This document shows, piece by piece, positions 27,664 to 50,043 of a DNA stretch of 50,043 bases. Numbering within the stretch: the stretch's first letter is position 1; the number at the start of each line of letters is the position of its first letter. This stretch comes from Deltaproteobacteria bacterium. GTDB lineage: Bacteria; Desulfobacterota; Desulfobaccia; Desulfobaccales; 0-14-0-80-60-11. The stretch is taken from the NCBI GenBank assembly GCA_026388765.1, contig JAPLJC010000197.1, positions 1 through 50,043 of the forward strand, written 5' to 3'. The notes under the pieces were generated by a model. The model made no database searches. It worked only from the letters and a program-made list of their open reading frames with translations, and was not told the origin of the DNA. Both the position numbers and the translations under genes were made by a program.

Positions 27664-29619
27664 GACTGCCATCTAATTGCGACAACTATCACTTTTGCTG
27701 TCCGGCGCGTCTGTGATAAGCTTGAAGCCCTGGGACCGGCATTTTCATTCGTTTACCAGTGATTACCCATGAAGCCTGCTGAAACCATCAAAGAGAAGAT
27801 CAGGCACAGCCTCCACTTGGAGCGCGCCCTGCGCTTGGTGTGGCGGAGCGCCCCGGGCTGGACCGCGGCCAATTTCGGGCTCATCCTGATCCAGGGCCTG
27901 CTTCCCCTGGTTTCTCTCTACCTGATGAAGCTCATTGTAGATGCGGTCACCGCCGGCTTGGTTGCCCCTGAAAAATCCGCGGCCTTAAGTAAAGTCATCC
28001 TCCTGATCGCCAGCGCGGCTGCCGTAGCTTTGTTTGCCGCCTGCTGCCGCTCCCTCACGGAGATTGTCAAAGAGGCCCAGACCCAGGTGGTCACTGACCA
28101 CGTGGCCGACGTCATCCACGGCAAGTCGGTGGCGGTGGACCTGGAGTATTATGAGGACCCCAAGTATTACGACACCCTGCACCGGGCCCAGCAGTAGGCC
28201 ACGTACCGGCCGACCAGCATAATGAATAGCCTGATGCAGTTAGGTCAAAGTGGCATCTCGCTTTTAGCCCTGGCAGGGTTGCTGATCTCGTTTCGGTGGT
28301 GGTTTGCCGCCATGCTCTTTGTGGCTACGGTCCCCGGGGTTTTGATGCGCTTGAAATACGCCAAACAGATGTACGATTGGCAGCGCCAGCACACCCAGGC
28401 TGAAAGGCGGGCCTATTATTATCACTGGATGCTCACTGACGGCAGCCATGCTCAAGAGATCCGGCTCTTTGGCCTGGGTTCGCTTTTCATGGATTGGTTC
28501 CGGGAGTTAAGAAAGAAGCTCCGGGTTGAAAAGCTGCAAATTTCCGCCAGACGGTCCTGGGCGGATTTGATCACCCAGGCTAGCGCCACCGTGGCGATTT
28601 TCGGAGCGCTGGCTTTTGTTGCCTTCCAGACAATTAAGGGGGCCATCACCATCGGGGATATGGTTATGTACTACGGGGCCTTTCAGCGGGCCCAGGGATC
28701 TCTTCAGGAAATCTGGACCAGTCTGACTAGCCTGTACGAAGACAACCTGTTTCTTGCCAATTTCACCGAATTCCTCGATCTCCAACCCAAAATGGCGGGG
28801 CCTCTCACCCCCACACCGGTTCCCCGCCCCATCAAGCAGGGCGTCCTGGTACAGGGCGTCAATTTCCAATATCCCACCGGAGAAAGAACGGTACTGGAGG
28901 ATATCAACCTCCAGATCCTACCCGGCCAGGTGGTGGCCTTGGTGGGTGAGAACGGCTCGGGAAAAACCAGCCTCATCAAGCTGTTGTGCCGGCTTTACGA
29001 TCCGGTGAGCGGCCTTATCACCATAGACGGCACGGACTTGCGCCAGTTTGATCCCAAGACCTTTAGGGGGGAAGTGAGCGTCATCCTCCAGGATTACGCG
29101 CATTACTGCCTGACCGCCCGAGAAAATATCTGGCTGGGGGACATCGGCCTGAACTCCCGGGATGAGAAGATTTTTGCCGCAGCCCGGCAGACAGGAGCCG
29201 ATAATTTTATCCAAAAGCTGCCTCGGGGCTACGAGACGGTGCTGGGTCATGAGTTTGAGGACCAGGGAGAGCTCAGCGTGGGCGAATGGCAGAAAGTGGC
29301 CCTGGCCCGGGCTTTCCTGCGAGAAGCCCAACTAATCATTTTGGATGAGCCGACGAGCTGGATGGACGCCCGGGCCGAATACGAGGTCTTTAAATCCTTC
29401 CGGCAAATTTATCAAGGCCGCATGGTTCTGCTCATCAGTCATCGTTTTTCCACAGTCAGGCTGGCAGATTATATTTATGTATTGGAAAATGGACGGATAA
29501 TCGAAAGCGGTACTCATAGCGAGTTAATTCAGAGGGGCGGCAAGTATGCGCGGTTATTTGAAATGCAGGCGAGTTCTTATCGCTAAAGAAAGTTTTACTA
29601 ACTTGGGAAATAACTGAAT
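27664..29619. repeat. Long direct repeat, left copy (about 1.95 kb, contains ABC exporter gene)
   Basis: From GACTGCCATC at 27664 through the spacer, the whole ABC gene and about 33 bases beyond its stop codon, the sequence recurs in the same orientation at 39252-41205. Identity is high at both ends and low in the middle. The two copies enclose about 9.6 kb of accessory DNA. Confidence 0.9.
27769..29586 (+). pseudogene. ABC exporter (fused permease-ATPase), copy 1, amber-interrupted
   Basis: A half-transporter of 605 codons: six-helix membrane domain at about 1-320, then the ATPase with Walker A GENGSGKT (from codon 393), Q-loop ILQDYAHY, signature ELSVGEWQ, Walker B LIILDEP and H-loop ISHRFS. 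Codon 143 is TAG (28195-28197), where copy 2 has GAG (Glu). The frame is otherwise intact from 27769 to 29586. Known: such exporters work as inner-membrane dimers moving lipids, peptides or glycans. Inference: a single G-to-T nonsense mutation, or readthrough or sequencing error. A second product could start at ATG 28222 but would lack the first membrane helices. Confidence 0.88.
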
Positions 29620-39251: not shown

Positions 39252-41205
39252 GACTGCCATCCAGCGCGACAAGTATCACTTTTGCGGTCCGGCGCGTCTG
39301 TGATAAGCTTGAAGGCCTGGAACAGGCATTTTCATTCCTTAACCAGTGATTACCCATGAAGCCTGCTGAACCCATCAAAGATAAGATCAGGCACAGCCTC
39401 CACTTGGAGCGCGCCCTGCGCTTGGTGTGGCGCAGCGCCCCGGGCTGGACCGCGGCCAATTTTGGGCTCATCCTGATCCAGGGCCTGCTTCCCCTGGTTT
39501 CTCTCTACCTGATGAAGCTCATCGTAGATGCTGTCACCGCCGGTTTGGTGTCACCTGAAAAATCCGCGGCCTTAAGTAAAGTCATCCTACTGATCGCCAT
39601 TGCGGCTGCCGTAGCTTTGTTTGCCGCCTGCTGCCGCTCCCTCACGGAGATTGTCAAAGAGGCCCAGACCCAGGTGGTCACTGACCACGTGGCCGACGTC
39701 ATCCACGGCAAGTCGGTGGCGGTGGACCTGGAGTATTACGAGGACCCCAAGTATTACGACACCCTGCACAGGGCCCAGCAGGAGGCTACTTACAGGCCGA
39801 CCAGGATAATGAACAGCCTGATGCAATTAGGTCAAAGCGGCATCTCGTTGGTAACCATGGGAGGTTTGCTAGTCGTATTTCGCTGGTGGGTTGCTGCCAT
39901 GCTTTTGTGGCTGCGGTCCCCGGGGTTTTGATACGCTTGAGATACGCCAAACAGATGTACGATTGGCAGCGCCAGCATACCCAGGCTGAAAGGCGAGCCC
40001 ATTATTATCATTGGATGCTCACAGACGGGGGCCATGCTCAGGAGATCCGGCTCTTTGGCCTGGGTTCGCTTTTCATGGATTGGTTCCGGGAGTTAAGAAA
40101 GAAGCTCCGGGTTGAAAAGTTGCAAATTTCCGCCAGGCGTTCCTTGGCGGATTTGATCACCCAGGCCAGTGCCACGGCGGCGATTTTCGGAGCTCTGGCT
40201 TTTGTTGCCTTCCAGACAATTAAGGGGGCCATCACCATCGGGGATATGGTTATGTACTATGGGGCCTTTCAGCGGGCCCAGGGATCTCTTCAGGAAATCT
40301 GGACCAGTCTGACTATCCTTTACGAGGATAACCTCTTTCTCGCCAACTTTAGCGAGTTTCTCGATCTCAAGCCAAAACTCGTGGAGCCACCTACTTCAAC
40401 ACCTTTTCCGCGCCCGATAAAGGAAGGGATTCTCCTGAATCAGGTCAATTTCCATTATCTCACCGGGGAGAGAGGCGTGTTGGAGGATATCAGTCTCCAG
40501 ATTTTGCCGGGCCAGGTAGTGGCCCTAGTGGGTGAGAATGGCTCAGGTAAAACGACTCTTATCAAGCTCCTCTACCGGCTCTATGACCCGGTAAGTGGCA
40601 ATATATCCATTGACAAGATTGATCTGCGCCAATTTGATCCCGGCGACATAAGGCGAGAAGTCAGCGTCATTCTTCAAGATTACGCCCACTACTGCCTGAC
40701 GGCGCGGGAGATTATCTGGCTGGGAGACATCAGCCTAAACTCCCGGGATAACAAGATTTACGCCGCGGCCCGGCAGACAGGAGCCGATGATTTTATCAAA
40801 AAGTTGCCCCGGGGGTACGAGACCGTTTTGGGTCATGAGTTTGAGGACCAGGGAGAGCTCAGCGTGGGCGAATGGCAGAAAGTGGCCCTGGCCCGCGCTT
40901 TCCTGCGAGAAGCCCAACTAATCATTTTGGATGAGCCGACGAGCTGGATGGACGCCCGAGCGGAATACGAGGTTTTTAAATCCTTCCGGCATATTTTTAA
41001 AGACCGCATGGTTCTGCTCGTCAGTCATCGCTTTTCCACAGTCAGGCTGGCAGATTATATCTTTGTATTGGAAAATGGGAGGATAATCGAAAGCGGTACA
41101 CATAGCGAGTTAATTCAGAGGGGCGGTAAGTATGCGCGGTTATTTGAAATGCAGGCGAGTTCTTATCGATAAAGAAAGTTTTGCTAACTTGGGAAATGAC
41201 TGAAA
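39252..41205. repeat. Long direct repeat, right copy (about 1.95 kb, contains ABC exporter gene)
   Basis: Same-orientation counterpart of 27664-29619, including about 100 bases upstream of the ABC start codon and about 33 bases after the stop. It marks the right end of the island. Confidence 0.9.
39356..41172 (+). pseudogene. ABC exporter (fused permease-ATPase), copy 2, frameshifted
   Basis: Begins with the same MKPAEPIKDKIRHSLHLE start as copy 1 and has Glu (GAG 39782-39784) where copy 1 has a stop. At 39902-39906 the run reads GCTTTTGTGG where copy 1 has GCTCTTTGTGG: one base is missing, so the first frame ends at 39931. The rest continues in another frame to 41172 with Walker A GENGSGKTTL, signature LSVGEWQ, Walker B LIILDEP and H-loop VSHRFS all intact. 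Inference: independently inactivated paralog. No slippery heptamer suggests programmed shifting. A start at 39886 would give a half-length protein lacking the first membrane helices. Confidence 0.88.
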
Positions 41206-41983
41206 TTAACAATTCGTCAGAGCATTTCATTCATAAACCTGAATTATTCCGCAGGAAAAGATGGAAACCAGCATAACTATCTGATATAAAAGGTAGGATC
41301 TACTTTCCCGCCCCTGGCCAAAGCTCAGACTAAAATTTCATCGTCGGTTCGAGTTTGTTAACCTCTTGTTTAGCTTTCTTTACATTTATCCTCGCAAAAT
41401 ATGAATTCCAATGGGGTATCTATCGAAATTTATTGGTACTTCCAGCTTTGGTATGGAGCTTGCTTACATTTGAGGCAGGAGACAGGTGCCCTCACGCGCA
41501 AAACCGAGAAAATATCATCTGCATTAGAGATTGGGTACCGTCATTATCTGAAGGCAGCAAGGCGGGGGCAAGCCAGGGGTTTTATTGACCTCCGGCGCTC
41601 CACCATCTCAAAGACAGCAGACGGCAGGCCCCGGGCAACCTCGAGCCACCTTTAATGAACACGACCGGAAATTTTCCAGTTTGCACGAGAATCCGGAAAG
41701 CTCAACGAAAAACTTGCAAACCGGAATCCTTTCATTTAAAATTTCCATATGCATGGCGATACGAGAATTAAGGAAATTCAACCGGGCAGGAAAGTTCTTT
41801 AAATTGTGGTCAAGATCATCAAGTCTCAAACCGGCTTTTGATCTTAATGCTATGTCAAACAATCCATGTTTTCTGTGGCAAAATACCACCAAAAACTAAT
41901 TTAACTTACTGCTTTTATTGCGATTATATGATGTCCCCATATGTAATTTGAGGGACGGTAGTGTGTCCTGAGGATGGCAGCAA
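41173..41983. other. Island-to-operon spacer without a supported gene
   Basis: About 810 bases. Open frames near 41355-41655 and 41585-41899 lack ribosome sites and recognisable sequence. The last 100 bases should contain the promoter and leader of the exopolysaccharide operon, with an ops-like element at 41954-41964. Confidence 0.4.
41954..41964 (+). promoter_or_regulatory. ops-like element
   Basis: GACGGTAGTGT matches the RfaH recruitment consensus GGCGGTAGYNT at ten of eleven positions. It is flanked by GGAC/GTCC (41953-41956 and 41964-41967), which can form a hairpin. It lies 20 bases before the start of an RfaH/UpxY-type gene, in the presumed leader of the operon. Confidence 0.5.
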
Positions 41984-42541
41984 GTGTTAAGAAATGTTCA
42001 AGAGGGCAATCCACTTTCGTTGCAAGCACAGCCAGAAAACTTTCTACCCTGGTATATAATTCACACATGCAGCCGTCATGAAGCCAAGGTCGAAGCTGGT
42101 CTGACTATGAAAGGTCAGGAGGTCTTCCTCCCCAGAGTAATGGTGCGCAGCCGTCGCCAGGACAGATTAAGGATGCTGGAAGTGCCTTTATTTCCGGGAT
42201 ATCTCTTCGTGCATACCGACCTCAGTTACTCAGACTACTATCATATTATTAGGCAAGACGGAGTGGTCCGCATCTTGGGAATCAAAGGTCAGTGTACCCC
42301 GGTGCCCGAAGAGACGGTGGCCAGCATTCGGACGTTGGTGAACAGCGGCCAGCCAATCTTTACCTGGTCCAAATTAGCGCCAGGCAAACGCGTGCGGGTA
42401 GTAGACGGCCCCCTGGCTGGCGCAAGCGGGGTTATTTCGCGGCTTAAAAAAGGGAATAGGCGTTTGGTGGTAGGTGTGGAACTCTTGGGACGATCAATAT
42501 GCGCAGAGTTAGCTGAGGAAAGCGTTGAGGTTGATGAATAA
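41984..42541 (+). CDS. UpxY/RfaH-family transcription antiterminator (NusG paralog)
   Basis: Protein of 185 residues. The NusG N-terminal domain covers about 20-115 (WYIIHTCSRHEAKVEAGL, FLPRVMVRSRR, LFPGYLFVHTDL) and a KOW domain is near residues 130-175 (GKRVRVVDGPLAGASGVI). Known: such paralogs open surface-polysaccharide operons and bind polymerase at ops-type sites to suppress termination across the operon. GTG start 41984 has AGGA nine bases upstream. Its position at the head of an export operon and the ops-like element upstream fit that role. It is likely self-recruiting. Confidence 0.88.
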   Translation: MLRNVQEGNPLSLQAQPENFLPWYIIHTCSRHEAKVEAGLTMKGQEVFLPRVMVRSRRQDRLRMLEVPLFPGYLFVHTDLSYSDYYHIIRQDGVVRILGIKGQCTPVPEETVASIRTLVNSGQPIFTWSKLAPGKRVRVVDGPLAGASGVISRLKKGNRRLVVGVELLGRSICAELAEESVEVDE

Positions 42542-42919: not shown

Positions 42920-43474
42920 GTGTCCCTCTTTCCGGCGCGGCGGAGTAAGCCTAAAAACATGTGGCAGCGGTTTTTTCAGGCATTTTTGATGGCTTTATTA
43001 CTTTTAGGCGGAGCGGCCTGGGCTCAAGGTCGAGATGACCTCCAAGACCAAGGGCAGCAGCAACCCTTACAAACCGATATGGTGAACAAGGACCAGCAAA
43101 GTCTCGATCTATCAATAGATAGGCATAATTCTAAAGCTAAAGACACAAAGGCTAAAGCTAAAGACAGAAAGGCGGCAAGGGTCACGGACATCAAAAAAAG
43201 TACTGAAAGTGGCAGTCCCAAGGCTGAATCTTTTAAGCCTTCATCCAGGCAGTATGGGATGTCTAACGCCCAAAGCAAGGGAGCGCAGTTTGGCACTTCG
43301 GGAAGGGGCCTTATTGGTAAGGGATATAACCAGTCCAGTATTTCTGGTTCGACGTCATTCTTGGACGGATATTTATTAAAATCCTTACATGATGAGGGCA
43401 TTTCAAGGAAAAAAACCAGGAATGCAGAAAAACCAAAAGATGATTTGCGCCTAAAAGGCAAGACTTCCTTCTAA
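42920..43474 (+). CDS. Secreted basic hypothetical protein
   Basis: From GTG 42920 (184 residues) or ATG 42959 (171 residues, beginning MWQRFFQAFLMALLLLGG). The shorter form has a clean Sec signal peptide with cleavage near AWAQG. The mature protein is hydrophilic and Lys/Ser-rich (SKAKDTKAKAKDRKAARV), with no Cys or globular domain that I recognise, and a more ordered C-terminus (SFLDGYLLKSLHDEG). Located between the antiterminator and the exporter lipoprotein, it may be a periplasmic or surface component of the polysaccharide system. Function unknown. Confidence 0.55.
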   Translation: MSLFPARRSKPKNMWQRFFQAFLMALLLLGGAAWAQGRDDLQDQGQQQPLQTDMVNKDQQSLDLSIDRHNSKAKDTKAKAKDRKAARVTDIKKSTESGSPKAESFKPSSRQYGMSNAQSKGAQFGTSGRGLIGKGYNQSSISGSTSFLDGYLLKSLHDEGISRKKTRNAEKPKDDLRLKGKTSF

Positions 43475-43644
43475 TTCTAAAGAGATTCCATAACCTGGGG
43501 CCGTCTTTCTGGTCAAGGTTGGGATGATACGAAAAAGCACCCATTTGGAGCAAATTAACCCTTCTCTTGAGTAATCTTAACTATCTGGACTCGATTCTGC
43601 CACCTTTTTATGAAGGACGCCCCAACCTTGAAGGAAGACTCAAA

Positions 43645-44829
43645 ATGCCCAAGAGACTGATCGAAGCATGTACAGCTCTTTCCGGCCGAAAAGTCGGAGA
43701 CGGAAATGATTTTTCACTAAAACAGCCGGCTGGAAGCCCTATATGGGGCTCCATCGTCCTTATACTCATAGGATTAGGTCTCATGATAGGTTGCGCCGCC
43801 CATCAGGCCCGCATGCAGGAGCTGGCCCAGGGTCCTTCGCAGCAAGTCCTCACGTCCCAGGCCTTATCGAAGATGCAGGCCCCGGACCCCAACAAGGAAT
43901 TGCAACAGCAGCTCATGGTGCAGGCATCCCGGGCTTCCCTGGTGAATTATAAAGATTATCAGGTGGGACCGGAAGATCAACTATCCATCATCATTTTCGG
44001 CCAGGACAATCTCAGCCGGGAGCTTCGGGTGAACGGCCAGGGAGAGATCGCCATGCCGCTGGTGGGGGTGGTCAAGGTAGCAGGCATGACTCCCCAAGAG
44101 GTCCAAAAACGGTTAGAGGAACTCTATAACGCCCGCTTCCTGGTGAATCCGCAGATCACGGTGACCGTCAAGGAATTCCGCCACCAGCGGGTGGCCGTCA
44201 CCGGCGCGGTGGCAAAGCCCGGGTCCTATGAAGTCATCGGACCCCGCACCCTGCTGGAAGTGTTATCCCTGGCCGGCGGGTTGGCGAGCCAAACCAGCAG
44301 CATACCAGCCGGGGACGTGATCACTGTTATCCGGCATCCGAACGCCCCTGAGCCGGCCGGGACGGGGAAGGCGGGGACCTCCCGGACTTCTACCCCGCTG
44401 GCAGAAACCGTGGTGGTGGTGATTGACATTCGTCGCTTGGTAAGCGGGCGGTCACCGGAGTTGAACATCCTGGTGGGCAACGGCGATGTCGTTGATGTCC
44501 CCTTTGCCGATACTGCCTATGTCATGGGGGCAGTTAAACAGCCGAAGAGTATCGCAGTCAAGGAAAACCTGACCGTGTCCCAGGCCGTGGCGTTGGCTGG
44601 AGGCGTCGACCCCCTATTAGCGTCAAGCAGTATTAACATTATGCGCTTTGATAAACAGGGAAATCCCACGAGCATTAAAGTTAATTTGAAAAGCATCATT
44701 GCCAGAAATGAGCCGGATATTCCGATTAAAGGCAGCGATGTGGTAGTGGTCAACGAGAGCACGGTGAAAATGGCTTTATATCTTTTCAAGTCCTTAATAC
44801 CTCAGCCCGCAATTCCCATTCCTTTTTGA
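43645..44829 (+). CDS. Outer-membrane polysaccharide export lipoprotein (Wza-like)
   Basis: Protein of 394 residues from ATG 43645 (AAGGA upstream); an earlier TTG at 43567 is less likely. The signal region is preceded by a basic stretch and ends at IGC, a lipobox with modified Cys. The poly-export domain follows (YQVGPEDQLSIIIFGQDNLS, GEIAMPLVGVVKVAG), then SLBB domains (VAVTGAVAKPGSYEVIG, AYVMGAVKQPKSIAV). Known: Wza-type octamers span periplasm and outer membrane as the exit channel for capsule or exopolysaccharide. It precedes the tyrosine kinase by 33 bases. Confidence 0.9.
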   Translation: MPKRLIEACTALSGRKVGDGNDFSLKQPAGSPIWGSIVLILIGLGLMIGCAAHQARMQELAQGPSQQVLTSQALSKMQAPDPNKELQQQLMVQASRASLVNYKDYQVGPEDQLSIIIFGQDNLSRELRVNGQGEIAMPLVGVVKVAGMTPQEVQKRLEELYNARFLVNPQITVTVKEFRHQRVAVTGAVAKPGSYEVIGPRTLLEVLSLAGGLASQTSSIPAGDVITVIRHPNAPEPAGTGKAGTSRTSTPLAETVVVVIDIRRLVSGRSPELNILVGNGDVVDVPFADTAYVMGAVKQPKSIAVKENLTVSQAVALAGGVDPLLASSSINIMRFDKQGNPTSIKVNLKSIIARNEPDIPIKGSDVVVVNESTVKMALYLFKSLIPQPAIPIPF

Positions 44830-44862: not shown

Positions 44863-47148
44863 ATGTCAGGTAATGATCAGCATCCTATGGTACCGCCATA
44901 CTCTTCTCCCGTACCGTCTCCATACTCGTCTCCATCTCTACCTCCGCCGATGGACCATGGTTACGAGGTGGACCAGGGAACGAGCCTACAGGAATATCTC
45001 CATATCCTGTTGAAACGCAAGTGGTGGGCTATCGGTACCTTCCTCACCATCTTCCTGACAATAGCGCTTTATACCTTCATTCAGACGCCCATCTTCCGCA
45101 CTACCGCGACGCTGCAGATCACCCAAGACAACCCCGGCTCCCAGGTGAGCGTAGACGACAAGCTGTCCAAGCTCACCGGCAGTAGTGATACAGACAAGTT
45201 CCTGCAGACCCAATACAAGATCCTGCAGAGCTGGTCCCTGGCCCAGCGTGTCGTGCTATCCTTGAACCTGAAGGACCACCCTGATTTCAAGTCTATCCGA
45301 GAGCAAAAGCCGAGCACAACCGATGCTGAGATTGGAGATGCCATCACGGGCCTCATTCAGAAAAACATCGAGGTCACCCCGGTCAAGAATGCATACTTAG
45401 TGGAGGTGGCTTTTCAATCTCCTGATAAGGGGCTGTCTCAAAGGGTAGTCAATGCCATTGCCGATGAATACATGTACCTGTCCATCGACCGGCGCAATGA
45501 GTCCTTCGCCTTGGTAAGAAAGTGGTTGGACAAGCAGCTTATGGAAATGGCGGGCAAGGTGCAGGAAGCCCAGAAGAAGCTCTATAAATTCGGGCAAAAA
45601 ACCGATACCTACACCTTGGAAGACAAAGATAACGTCGTAGTCCAGAAATTCATCGATCTAAGAGGCTTGCTCACTAAGGCCCAGGCTGAGAAAATGGCCA
45701 AGGAGGCGCAATATCAGCAGATTAAGGCTAAAGGCCCCGACACCCCGCTGATTGTTAATAATCCTTTGGTGGCGACATTGCGCCAACAGTTGGTAGTCGA
45801 ACAGGCCAAGGTTTCGGCCATGCAGAAAGTTTTTCGGGGCGACCATCCGGACCTCCAGGCCGAACGGGCCAACCTGGCCGAATTACGGACCCGTCTCCAG
45901 GCCGAAGTCCAACGACTCCAGGAAAGCCTCAAGGCGGATTATGAAGCCGCCAACCGGGCAGAGAAGCTCCTGTACGAGAGTTTTACGGCCCAGAAAGGGC
46001 AGATGATTAAGCTGCAAGATAATCTCGCCGACTTTCAAATCCTGAAACGGGATGCCCAGACCAATGAGCAGCTCTATCAGGCCTTGTTGGCCCGGGTGAA
46101 AGAAGCCAGCATCGCCGGTACCATGGTGCCTTCCAACGTGGCGGTCATCGATCCGGGGCGGCTGCCGGACAAACCTTTCAAGCCCAAAACTAGGCGCGAT
46201 CTGGCCCTGGCTGCGGGTTTGGGTTTGATGTTAGGTTTGGGCTTGGCCTTCCTTATGGAGCATCTGGACGACTCCATTAAATCTCTGGATGACCTGGAAC
46301 GAGCCTGTGGTTTACCCTCACTGGGGATTCTGCCACTATTGGGCAGCAACGGCAGGTTAACCCTCACTCGTCAGAATAAAGCCAATACGTCACTGATGTG
46401 GCGTTATCTTCCCCGTCTCCAGCGGAGAAGCGAGGGCAGTGCTGAATCTGTAGATATGGATTTGATGGTTTACAAACATCCTAAATCCCAGGTTAGTGAA
46501 GCTATCTCCCAAATTTACTCTTCCCTCATGCTCTCCGTTTCGGGCCGGCCTCCATGCGCCATCATGGTTACCAGCCCCAATCCCAATGAAGGGAAAACCA
46601 TGCTCGTGGCCAATCTGGCCCAATCCTACGCTCTGAATGATCGCAAGACGGTCTTAATCGATTGCGACTTGAGGAAACCGAGGATCCACAAGATCTTCCA
46701 GGTCGAGTCCCAGCCCGGTCTGTCCAATTACCTCACCGGCAGCGCCACTCTGGAAGAGATTCTCCGCCCCACTGCCATCCCCAACCTGACCATCATAACC
46801 GCCGGGGCCCGACCTCCCAGCCCCGGGAATCTCTTGAACTCCGAGCTCTTCAAGGAACTGCTCAAGGAACTCCGCCAGCAGTTTCGCCACATCATCATCG
46901 ATACGCCCCCCGTGCTGGGTTTTGCCGATGCCCGGTTTGTCTCCCAACTGGTAGACGGCGTCTTGATAGTCGTTAAGTATGATTTCACCCACAAGAGCGC
47001 CGGCCGCCTGGCTCAGCAGCTCCTCAGCCAGGCTCCCGTCCTCGGGGTCGTGCTAAACTCGGTAGGCGTCCATGGACAAACTTATGGAGGCTATTATTAT
47101 TACTACAACCATTACAAATATTATTCAAAATACTATGAAGGCAAGTAA
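44863..47148 (+). CDS. Polysaccharide co-polymerase / BY-type tyrosine kinase (Wzc-like)
   Basis: Protein of 761 residues. A Pro/Ser-rich start precedes the Wzz domain with a first helix near 48-68 (KRKWWAIGTFLTIFLTIAL). A large periplasmic coiled region and a second helix near 445-465 follow. The cytoplasmic BY-kinase has Walker A SPNPNEGKTM (about 570), Walker A' VLIDCDLRKPR and Walker B IIIDTPPVLG. It ends in an eleven-Tyr tail (YYYYYNHYKYYSKYY). Known: cyclic autophosphorylation of the tail controls polymer length and export through Wza. All motifs are intact, and it follows the wza-like gene directly. Confidence 0.93.
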   Translation: MSGNDQHPMVPPYSSPVPSPYSSPSLPPPMDHGYEVDQGTSLQEYLHILLKRKWWAIGTFLTIFLTIALYTFIQTPIFRTTATLQITQDNPGSQVSVDDKLSKLTGSSDTDKFLQTQYKILQSWSLAQRVVLSLNLKDHPDFKSIREQKPSTTDAEIGDAITGLIQKNIEVTPVKNAYLVEVAFQSPDKGLSQRVVNAIADEYMYLSIDRRNESFALVRKWLDKQLMEMAGKVQEAQKKLYKFGQKTDTYTLEDKDNVVVQKFIDLRGLLTKAQAEKMAKEAQYQQIKAKGPDTPLIVNNPLVATLRQQLVVEQAKVSAMQKVFRGDHPDLQAERANLAELRTRLQAEVQRLQESLKADYEAANRAEKLLYESFTAQKGQMIKLQDNLADFQILKRDAQTNEQLYQALLARVKEASIAGTMVPSNVAVIDPGRLPDKPFKPKTRRDLALAAGLGLMLGLGLAFLMEHLDDSIKSLDDLERACGLPSLGILPLLGSNGRLTLTRQNKANTSLMWRYLPRLQRRSEGSAESVDMDLMVYKHPKSQVSEAISQIYSSLMLSVSGRPPCAIMVTSPNPNEGKTMLVANLAQSYALNDRKTVLIDCDLRKPRIHKIFQVESQPGLSNYLTGSATLEEILRPTAIPNLTIITAGARPPSPGNLLNSELFKELLKELRQQFRHIIIDTPPVLGFADARFVSQLVDGVLIVVKYDFTHKSAGRLAQQLLSQAPVLGVVLNSVGVHGQTYGGYYYYYNHYKYYSKYYEGK

Positions 47149-47320: not shown

Positions 47321-49354
47321 ATGCTCGCCCAATTTCACAATCGCCGATTCTACATCGTCCTGACAGCCGATCTGGTAATCTTCGTTACGGTCTTCATCGG
47401 GGCCTATCTGCTGCGCTTTGACTTCATCCTGGACCCATTCTACCGCGCTCAAATATTAAGATTGGCGCCGTTTCTCTTACCCGGCAAGACCTTAATCTTC
47501 TTCTTCTTTGGTCTGTATCGGGGCATGTGGCGCTACACCAGCCTGAATGATTTCTGGCGACTGGGGCAGGCCAGCCTCTTATCCATGATTTATTATATTG
47601 TCGCCACTCTCTGTTTTTACGGCTTCCAGGGCATCCCCCGTTCGATTTTCCTGCTTGACGCCATTCTCACCTTTCTCGTGATTGGCGGGCTACGCATAGG
47701 TATTCGCCTTTTCTACAGGGCTGCCAACAGTTCCGAAGGACTGTGGCCTTTTTGCTACTGGAGCCTCAGGAGTCCCCGGTCAGAAGCTAAATCCGTCCTC
47801 ATAGTGGGTGCCGGCGGAGCCGGTGAAAAGATGCTCCGCGAAATTTTCGACAATCAGCACCTGGACTACCACGTGGTGGGCTTCCTCGATGATGACCGCA
47901 CCAAATGGGGACGGAGTCTGCACGGGTTGCAAGTCTTTGGCGGTGTAGACATGCTTCCTGAAATTGTCGGATGGGAAAAAATTAATGAAGTCCTCATTGC
48001 CATCCCTCGCTCCACCGGCGCCCAGATGCGGCGTGTCATCGAGATATGCAAGAGTTGCAATGTTTCCTACCGGACCCTGCCGGAAATCGGCGCCATCATA
48101 GACGGGAAGGTTAGTATCAAAAGCTTGCGTGATGTGAAATACGAAGATTTGCTGCGCCGCCCCCCGGTGAGACTGGATATCGCGGAGATAAGCTGCTATC
48201 TGCAAGAGAAACGAGTGCTCGTGACCGGCGCGGGGGGGTCCATCGGCTCGGAGCTGTGCCGGCAAATAATCCGGTTCGACCCGAAAGAACTTATCCTGGT
48301 GGATGCCAGCGAGGTGAACCTCTTTAACCTCCAGATGGAGCTGAAGCATGAACTGAATTTCCACCAGTATCAGTGCATCCTCAGCCGGGTGCAGGACCAG
48401 CCGCTGATGAACGATGTCTTCAGCAAATATCGGCCGCACCTGATTTTTCATGCCGCGGCTTACAAACACGTCCCCTTACTGGAAATAAACCCCTGGGAGG
48501 CAATTTCTAACAATGTGTTGGGCAGCCAGGTCGTCATGGATCTATCGCTGCAATACGGGGTGGAGCGTTTCGTGCTGGTTTCGACGGATAAGGCAGTGCG
48601 TCCGACCAATGTCATGGGCGCAAGCAAGCGCCTGGCAGAGCTTATTTTGCAGTCCCGGCAAGGAAACGGCGTGCGCTTTATGGCGGTGCGCTTTGGCAAC
48701 GTTATCGGCTCATCGGGATCGGTGCTCCCCCTTTTCCGGCGGCAGTTGGAACAGGGTGGCCCGATTACGGTGACCCATCCCGAGGTGACCCGCTACTTCA
48801 TGACCATCACCGAGGCGGCCCAACTTATCCTCCAGGCAGCCGGGCTGGGCGAAGGGGGAGAAATTTTTATATTGGAGATGGGAACGCCGGTCAATATCGC
48901 CAAGATGGCGGAGGAGCTGGTGCGGCTCTCGGGTAAGAAACCGGGCAAAGACGTGGAGATTATCTTCACCGGTTTGCGGGAGGGGGAAAAACTTTACGAA
49001 GAACTCATCACCCAGGGCGAAGGCGTCGTAAACACAAAGCATGAAAAGATCATGGTACTCCGGCCCAACGGCTGGAATGGCAAAAACAGCCAGGGTGAAT
49101 TTACCCAGTGCCTTGACGCCGCACTCGAAGACCTCTACCGGATCGTCAATTCGCATGATGCGCAGGCCATCAGGAGCAAGCTTGGAGAAATTCTCCATGA
49201 ATACGTGGCGCAATGTAACATCCAGGATGTGCTGCAGTTGAATCGAGCCGCAAGCGATGCCGTATCGCCAATCAAGGCGCTGGCCGGTGGAACGGCAGCT
49301 CAAGATGAGAGCGCGCCTGCCCCAGACGGCAAGAAAGTGGCGCTGGTCTGCTGA
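47321..49354 (+). CDS. Membrane nucleotide-sugar 4,6-dehydratase (CapD/WbpM-like)
   Basis: Protein of 677 residues. Four membrane helices lie at about 10-130. A first Rossmann-like domain follows (VLIVGAGGAGEKMLREI), then the catalytic SDR domain with NAD motif TGAGGSIGSE at 302-311. The SDR active site is non-classical, Met432-x3-Lys436 (VMGASK), as in WbpM/PglF/FlaA1 dehydratases. Known: these convert UDP-GlcNAc to 4-keto-6-deoxy intermediates for surface sugars. It is the first sugar-modifying gene of the operon. Confidence 0.92.
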   Translation: MLAQFHNRRFYIVLTADLVIFVTVFIGAYLLRFDFILDPFYRAQILRLAPFLLPGKTLIFFFFGLYRGMWRYTSLNDFWRLGQASLLSMIYYIVATLCFYGFQGIPRSIFLLDAILTFLVIGGLRIGIRLFYRAANSSEGLWPFCYWSLRSPRSEAKSVLIVGAGGAGEKMLREIFDNQHLDYHVVGFLDDDRTKWGRSLHGLQVFGGVDMLPEIVGWEKINEVLIAIPRSTGAQMRRVIEICKSCNVSYRTLPEIGAIIDGKVSIKSLRDVKYEDLLRRPPVRLDIAEISCYLQEKRVLVTGAGGSIGSELCRQIIRFDPKELILVDASEVNLFNLQMELKHELNFHQYQCILSRVQDQPLMNDVFSKYRPHLIFHAAAYKHVPLLEINPWEAISNNVLGSQVVMDLSLQYGVERFVLVSTDKAVRPTNVMGASKRLAELILQSRQGNGVRFMAVRFGNVIGSSGSVLPLFRRQLEQGGPITVTHPEVTRYFMTITEAAQLILQAAGLGEGGEIFILEMGTPVNIAKMAEELVRLSGKKPGKDVEIIFTGLREGEKLYEELITQGEGVVNTKHEKIMVLRPNGWNGKNSQGEFTQCLDAALEDLYRIVNSHDAQAIRSKLGEILHEYVAQCNIQDVLQLNRAASDAVSPIKALAGGTAAQDESAPAPDGKKVALVC

Positions 49355-49773: not shown

Positions 49774-50043
49774 TTGCGCAAGAAAGTGTTAGTTACCGGG
49801 GCTGATGGATTCATTGGCAGTCATCTAGTCGAAGCCTTGTTGGATATGGGTTGTCAAGTTAAGGCCTTTGTCTATTATAATTCCTTCAATTCCTGGGGCT
49901 GGCTTGAATCTATCAGTGAAAAGAAGCTTTCGCATATTGAAGTCTTCTCAGGAGATATTAGAGATTCAAATGGGGTCAGAAAAGCAGTAAGGGGTGTGCA
50001 GACCGTCTTCCACCTATCTGCTCTGATCGGCATTCCCTTCTCC
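49774..50043 (+). CDS. LegB-like NAD-dependent 4,6-dehydratase, 3' partial
   Basis: The first 90 codons of an extended short-chain dehydrogenase: NAD motif VTGADGFIGSHLVEALLD, then the diagnostic VYYNSFNSWGWLE segment, GDIRD and VFHLSALIGIPFS. The YNSFNSWGWL segment is what I associate with LegB-type dehydratases of the legionaminic (nonulosonic) acid pathway. The start is TTG 49774 with AAAGGG nine bases upstream; ATG 49766 is out of frame. The active-site YxxxK lies beyond the window edge. Related UDP-sugar epimerases cannot be excluded. Confidence 0.72.
   Translation, partial: MRKKVLVTGADGFIGSHLVEALLDMGCQVKAFVYYNSFNSWGWLESISEKKLSHIEVFSGDIRDSNGVRKAVRGVQTVFHLSALIGIPFS

Follow-up and report, generated by a model that had tools for sequence, protein, structure and literature searches.

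How does a specialised NusG paralog find the operon in which its own gene lies? How paralogs of this kind are recruited has been stated to be unknown (PMC7593976), and a 2024 paper on the structure of the ops element asks whether non-template-strand hairpins with other loop bases recruit other elongation factors (PMC11001881). Both questions bear on the window analysed here, a stretch of 50,043 nucleotides from a member of the Desulfobaccales, in which an ops-like element lies in front of a gene for a UpxY-family NusG paralog. The likely answer for this locus is that positions 41943-41968 form a pause-and-load site of the ops/JUMPstart class for the UpxY-family product of the next gene. The genes concerned are as follows.

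41984-42541, forward strand: UpxY-family NusG paralog (NF033644, PF02357), 185 aa, GTG start
42920-43474, forward strand: small ORF that matches neither Pfam nor NCBIfam families and is not UpxZ
43567-44829, forward strand: Wza-type polysaccharide export protein (Poly_export, SLBB)
44863-47148, forward strand: Wzc-type chain-length determinant/tyrosine autokinase
47321-49354, forward strand: CapD/PseB-like nucleotide-sugar dehydratase
49774-50043, forward strand: first part of an NAD-dependent epimerase-like gene which runs off the contig, assigned by sequence only

With Wza, Wzc, CapD-like and epimerase genes downstream, the site heads an exopolysaccharide operon. An RfaH/UpxY-type gene had been predicted directly after the element, and the protein proves to be of the UpxY type, scoring 103.2 bits with NF033644 against a cut-off of 100. 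It falls below the cut-offs for RfaH (TIGR01955, 88.8 versus 144.5 bits) and LoaP (NF033641, 89.1 versus 125 bits), and its score with the NusG model is also below cut-off. GAGGAT at 41970-41975 fits as the ribosome-binding site of the gene, which is the only close upxY gene in the source genome. No upxZ gene stands beside it, the next ORF being that at 42920-43474. The region just upstream of the polysaccharide operon carries a recent duplication, comprising two stretches with ABC-transporter genes (27679-29586 and 39266-41172) which lie 11.6 kb apart and are 93-94% identical over the blocks checked.

The KOW domain of the UpxY-family protein is all-beta in the AlphaFold2 model, albeit with low confidence (about 45-70), and the best PDB matches of the model are NusG and RfaH. 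When the protein is aligned with RfaH, none of the base-reading residues H20, R23, Q24 and R73 is kept (G39, M42, K43 and D92 in the window protein), and the autoinhibition interface residues E48 and F130 are replaced by V and I. The residues with which RfaH reads ops are thus absent, and any reading of the loop must therefore use other contacts. The tip of the beta-hairpin, by contrast with these positions, is SRRRDR-like and near-invariant in the order; the corresponding loop of RfaH contacts upstream DNA through R40 (PMC11001881), which fits a GTAA box placed in the upstream duplex. Monomorphic, cis-encoded RfaH homologs have been reported in a preprint to be active without ops (PMC13015549). 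The window protein resembles them in its predicted beta-type KOW domain, in lying beside the target operon and in missing the ops-contact residues, but differs in that its gene is accompanied by a conserved ops-like site. The leader that holds this site contains the following features.

41902-41918, forward strand: TAAC at -63 with CTGCTTTTAT, a probable promoter-proximal block, extended -10-like
41922-41948, forward strand: possible leader RNA hairpin, AUUAUAUG pairing with CAUAUGUAAU
41943-41947, forward strand: GTAAT box at -22 to -18 from T11, in the upstream-duplex position
41953-41956 and 41965-41968 (span 41953-41968), forward strand: GGAC/GTCC bracket with complementary arms
41954-41964, forward strand: ops-like element GACGGTAGTGT; the RNA 3' end at the pause is predicted to be T11 (41964), and the next base is G (41965)
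41955-41962, forward strand: predicted non-template-strand minihairpin, with pairs A2:T9 (41955:41962) and C3:G8 (41956:41961) and loop G4-G5-T6-A7 (41957-41960)

As the original prediction had it, GACGGTAGTGT agrees with GGCGGTAGYNT at ten of eleven positions, the sole difference being A for G at position 2, and its end lies 20 nt before the GTG start. The pause had been placed at 41962; the predicted pause base is instead T11, at 41964. The non-template hairpin of E. coli ops, as resolved by cryo-EM, has the pairs G2:C9, C3:G8 and G4:A7 (PMC11001881), and by sequence the window has A2:T9, C3:G8, G4/A7 and T6. The single mismatch to ops thus keeps the hairpin pair, since A2:T9 replaces G2:C9. 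Other sites have a G:C pair in this place, and the change of G2 to A matched by T9 may represent one compensatory event by which the 2:9 pair was kept, an argument which is suggestive only. The DNA folding energy of the window minihairpin is about 0, that of most relatives tried being -0.3 to -2.1. The consensus-pause bases T-1 and G+1 are present, whereas -10 is A in the window and G in all 45 other sites, and the window pause may therefore be weak. The proposal that GGAC and GTCC bracket the element stands in so far as both arms are present, and arm complementarity is seen in most sites. The arms do not co-vary, however, over 21 sites (permutation P=0.53), and the bracket was dropped as a conserved stem.

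An 11-mer with one mismatch is poor evidence when taken alone. The window contains seven such matches against 5.1 expected, and the genome 539, fewer than the 814 of its reversed control; at chance level in both, the bare 11-mer was given up as evidence. The position of the site within a larger pattern is another matter. GTAA-N9,10-CGGTAGYNTGYC has a single match in the source genome, which is the window site, and the form with a GAA loop has none there; across 395 genomes the same GTAA-containing pattern is at noise level apart from the known sites. In a matrix built from 45 sites with the window excluded, 41964 ranks first in the window with a score of 19.2, the runner-up reaching 9.2, and the best score on 20 random sequences of 50 kb was 18.0. 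The window site is thus confirmed to stand above chance in its context, immediately before UpxY, with GTAA at -22 and at the top matrix position. It might be argued that the class is real elsewhere and that the window copy is a chance match or a decayed, non-functional one, as it alone has A at -10 and two of the random sequences reach 17-18. We regard this as most improbable for a site which lies so close to the UpxY start, leads the window by 10 bits, retains GTAA at -22 and TAAC at -63, and has its G2A change paired.

A site serving to load UpxY ought, according to the original prediction, to be conserved before orthologous upxY genes, and this is what was found. The order yielded a set of 16 UpxY loci after removal of one (L015) as a housekeeping NusG, preceded by a secE-like gene. 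A scoring site lies no more than 110 nt upstream of UpxY in 11 of the 16 and at about 360-500 nt in two more, making 13 in all, and the opposite strand of the 16 loci has no equally good match. The recurring core in these leaders is GC-GGTA-GC or GC-GGGA-GC, or has a 3-base loop, GC-GAA-GC or GC-GGA-GC; it is followed by one or two bases, then T, then usually G (G or A). Regular expressions for the core showed enrichment close to the gene, with seven and five matches in 11.4 kb at 0-120 nt upstream of UpxY, two of the seven coming from duplicate loci, and five and 11 matches elsewhere in the loci on both strands. No site lies beside the UpxY gene in L012 and L016. In the latter case a site (L132, G006:C23:94414-94439) is found at the head of a polysaccharide gene, at a distance of about 5.5 kb from the site-less UpxY paralog. 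At another locus (L013/L104, G012:C54) a single upxY gene has a site on either side, one about 50 nt before the start of the match and the other about 430 nt past the stop codon. Genome G012 has three UpxY paralogs, whose sites have the loops GGA, GAA and GGGA, the GGA site being without a GTAA box; these three sequences suggest that the different loops might act as an address code. As a separate observation, GGCGGTAGTCTGTCC, which is ops-like and without a GTAA box, recurs before unrelated genes in several genomes of the order (L125, L127, L133, L136), for example before hydrogenase-linked and HEAT-repeat-like ORFs.

The conserved part of the element extends beyond the core. GTAA lies exactly at -22 in 12 of the 16 sites of the order, which were picked by the core without using GTAA; the exceptions include L013, with GTAT at -22, and L132, with GTAA at -23. 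The -22 register holds for minihairpin loops of both 3 and 4 nt. It is therefore the distance to the pause base which is conserved, and not that to the hairpin, as would be expected of a signal measured on RNA polymerase. As judged from these leaders, ops is only part of the element, which also takes in a GTAA box 22 nt before the pause base.

This architecture invites comparison with E. coli, in which ops/JUMPstart likewise lies in the leaders of polysaccharide operons and has the same hairpin pair positions and T at the pause base. The JUMPstart of the K-12 rfb operon, AGCTGTAAAGCCAGGGGCGGTAGCGT followed by GC, carries GTAA in the -22 register too, and both matrices rank it first within its 3 kb stretch. 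That of waa, on the other hand, has GTTG in place of GTAA and a low matrix score, which shows that not every E. coli JUMPstart possesses the box. Beyond the GTAA register and the ops part, the rest of the 39-bp JUMPstart sequence is not common to the window. The Desulfobaccales sites differ further from ops in their variable loop (GGTA, GGGA, GAA or GGA), in the A at position 2 of the window copy, and in the adjacency of the factor gene to the site in many loci. The Rfam JUMPstart family (RF01707) gave no match at the gathering threshold, and none when E was relaxed to 10 over 41880-42000; neither JUMPstart nor any other credible Rfam match was found in the window and 24 other loci.

The association of site and factor extends well outside the order. 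A strict pattern, GTAAYYGANNGGGCGRAGC, has 13 matches in 198 Desulfobacterota genomes, against one for the reversed control, and the neighbours of these matches are mostly polysaccharide genes, judged by sequence. T occupies -1 in 12 of the 13, though this position is three bases beyond the end of the pattern. A close UpxY (E 1e-18 or better) is encoded by every one of the 11 genomes with a strict site, as against five of 24 without one (Fisher P=1e-5, a value which is only indicative because the genomes compared share ancestry to varying extents). In several Desulfobacterota genomes the site and upxY are far apart or on separate contigs and the site heads an unlinked polysaccharide operon, which points to action in trans. 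Many UpxY loci of the Desulfobacterales have no site within 3 kb. An alignment-based scan added 80 UpxY loci (of at least 475), on which the Nitrospirota and Acidobacteriota sites rest. In the UpxY loci, 30 matches reach a matrix score of 16 or more, all of them on the gene strand; 26 of these were used in training or duplicate a site that was, and the independent part is therefore the four untrained loci L043, L073, L076 and L078, which score 19-31. The usual place of the site in Nitrospirota and several other phyla is about 80-460 nt past the upxY stop codon, before polysaccharide genes. Separately, one acidobacterial locus (L086) has an exact ops 11-mer, GGCGGTAGCAT, just upstream of the UpxY ORF, preceded by an AGAGTC...GACTCT hairpin and without a GTAA box. 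The site class recurs at polysaccharide operons across several phyla, a distribution wider than we found described.

Sites of this kind might instead be duplex-DNA regulatory elements of polysaccharide operons, such as a promoter or activator box, with no relation to elongation. The leaders do contain features of such appearance: a TAAC block lies at -61 to -63 in 13 of the 16 leaders of the order, several of them have GTAA or TAAC both at -22 and near -63, and at -62 the TAAC block resembles a promoter. The TAAC...CTGA-type block, seen at 41902-41918 and in relatives, could represent an extended -10 promoter or an activator site, and may well be promoter-proximal. A duplex-DNA role for the site itself is nevertheless very unlikely. 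High-scoring sites are restricted to the operon strand, the T at -1 is not demanded by the pattern that finds it, the core is hairpin-compatible with a variable loop, and the sites track the presence of UpxY across genomes. Their register, moreover, is that of the rfb JUMPstart, and JUMPstart acts after initiation.

A second alternative, unlikely though less so, is that UpxY binds an RNA hairpin in the nascent leader, as LoaP does, and that the resemblance to ops is secondary. Across 22 sites leader hairpins are enriched (mean z -1.33 versus -0.40 in control stretches, p=0.004), and GC-GNA-GC could fold as RNA too. There is also the precedent of LoaP of the Bacillota, which binds a hairpin in dfn RNA, no pause being seen there (PMC12691694). 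LoaP resembles the window protein in being a specialised NusG paralog with a recruitment signal in the leader, but differs in binding an RNA hairpin and in the family cut-off which the window protein does not reach. Against an RNA signal, the leader hairpins vary in position and sequence and the window's own is not significant (z=0.12), so that a consistent leader RNA hairpin has moderate support over the set and none for the window alone, and was set aside. The outer stem is without covariation, there is no Rfam match, and the distance from GTAA to the step from T to R (G or A) is fixed, as expected if the polymerase sets the register.

A pause-and-load site read on the paused polymerase is thus the preferred interpretation. 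Given the architecture of the site and the E. coli structures, pausing, hairpin formation, binding and antitermination would be expected here. RNA polymerase transcribing the leader would pause with T41964 at the RNA 3' end, and the exposed non-template strand would fold into a small hairpin, AC-GGTA-GT. The N-terminal domain of UpxY would read the hairpin loop whilst the basic beta-hairpin tip, of the SRRRDR type, would sit on the upstream duplex at the GTAA box. Once loaded, UpxY would stay with the polymerase as it transcribes upxY itself and the long polysaccharide operon. In Bacteroides, UpxY is reportedly encoded as the first gene of the polysaccharide operon and acts on its leader, according to studies of 2009 and 2024. 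The window locus is similar in that a factor of this family is encoded first in a polysaccharide operon, and differs in belonging to another phylum and in having no UpxZ beside the gene. Contacts of UpxY to upstream duplex DNA have been reported, as cited in PMC12691694.

The suggestion that the factor loads itself, site and gene being side by side, suits the source genome, where one UpxY gene is matched by one detectable site. Self-loading fits as the natural reading there, and the genome would represent a closed loop of one factor and one site acting in cis. The arrangement is not universal, however, since other lineages have the site after upxY or in front of unlinked operons, from which it follows that the factor can act in trans.

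More tentatively, JUMPstart/ops may be one example of a loading signal which is ancient and shared by several phyla, and whose two parts, the GTAA box of the upstream duplex and the minihairpin of the non-template strand, are read at a fixed distance on the paused polymerase. The loop (GGTA, GGGA, GAA or GGA) would serve as a changeable address, the UpxY paralogs of a single genome each being kept to their own operon by a different loop. The window would be an example in which self-loading occurs in cis only. This wider view is possible, though we hold it with some doubt. The 2024 Bacteroides UpxY study may already answer part of the recruitment question for that phylum. The site class may also explain why some JUMPstart sequences have a conserved portion upstream of ops. 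Furthermore, it supplies conserved sequences with factor genes adjacent, including different loops within one genome; with such concrete sites and neighbouring factors, the recruitment of NusG paralogs encoded in their own operons and the recognition of hairpins with other loops are both open to direct bench tests.
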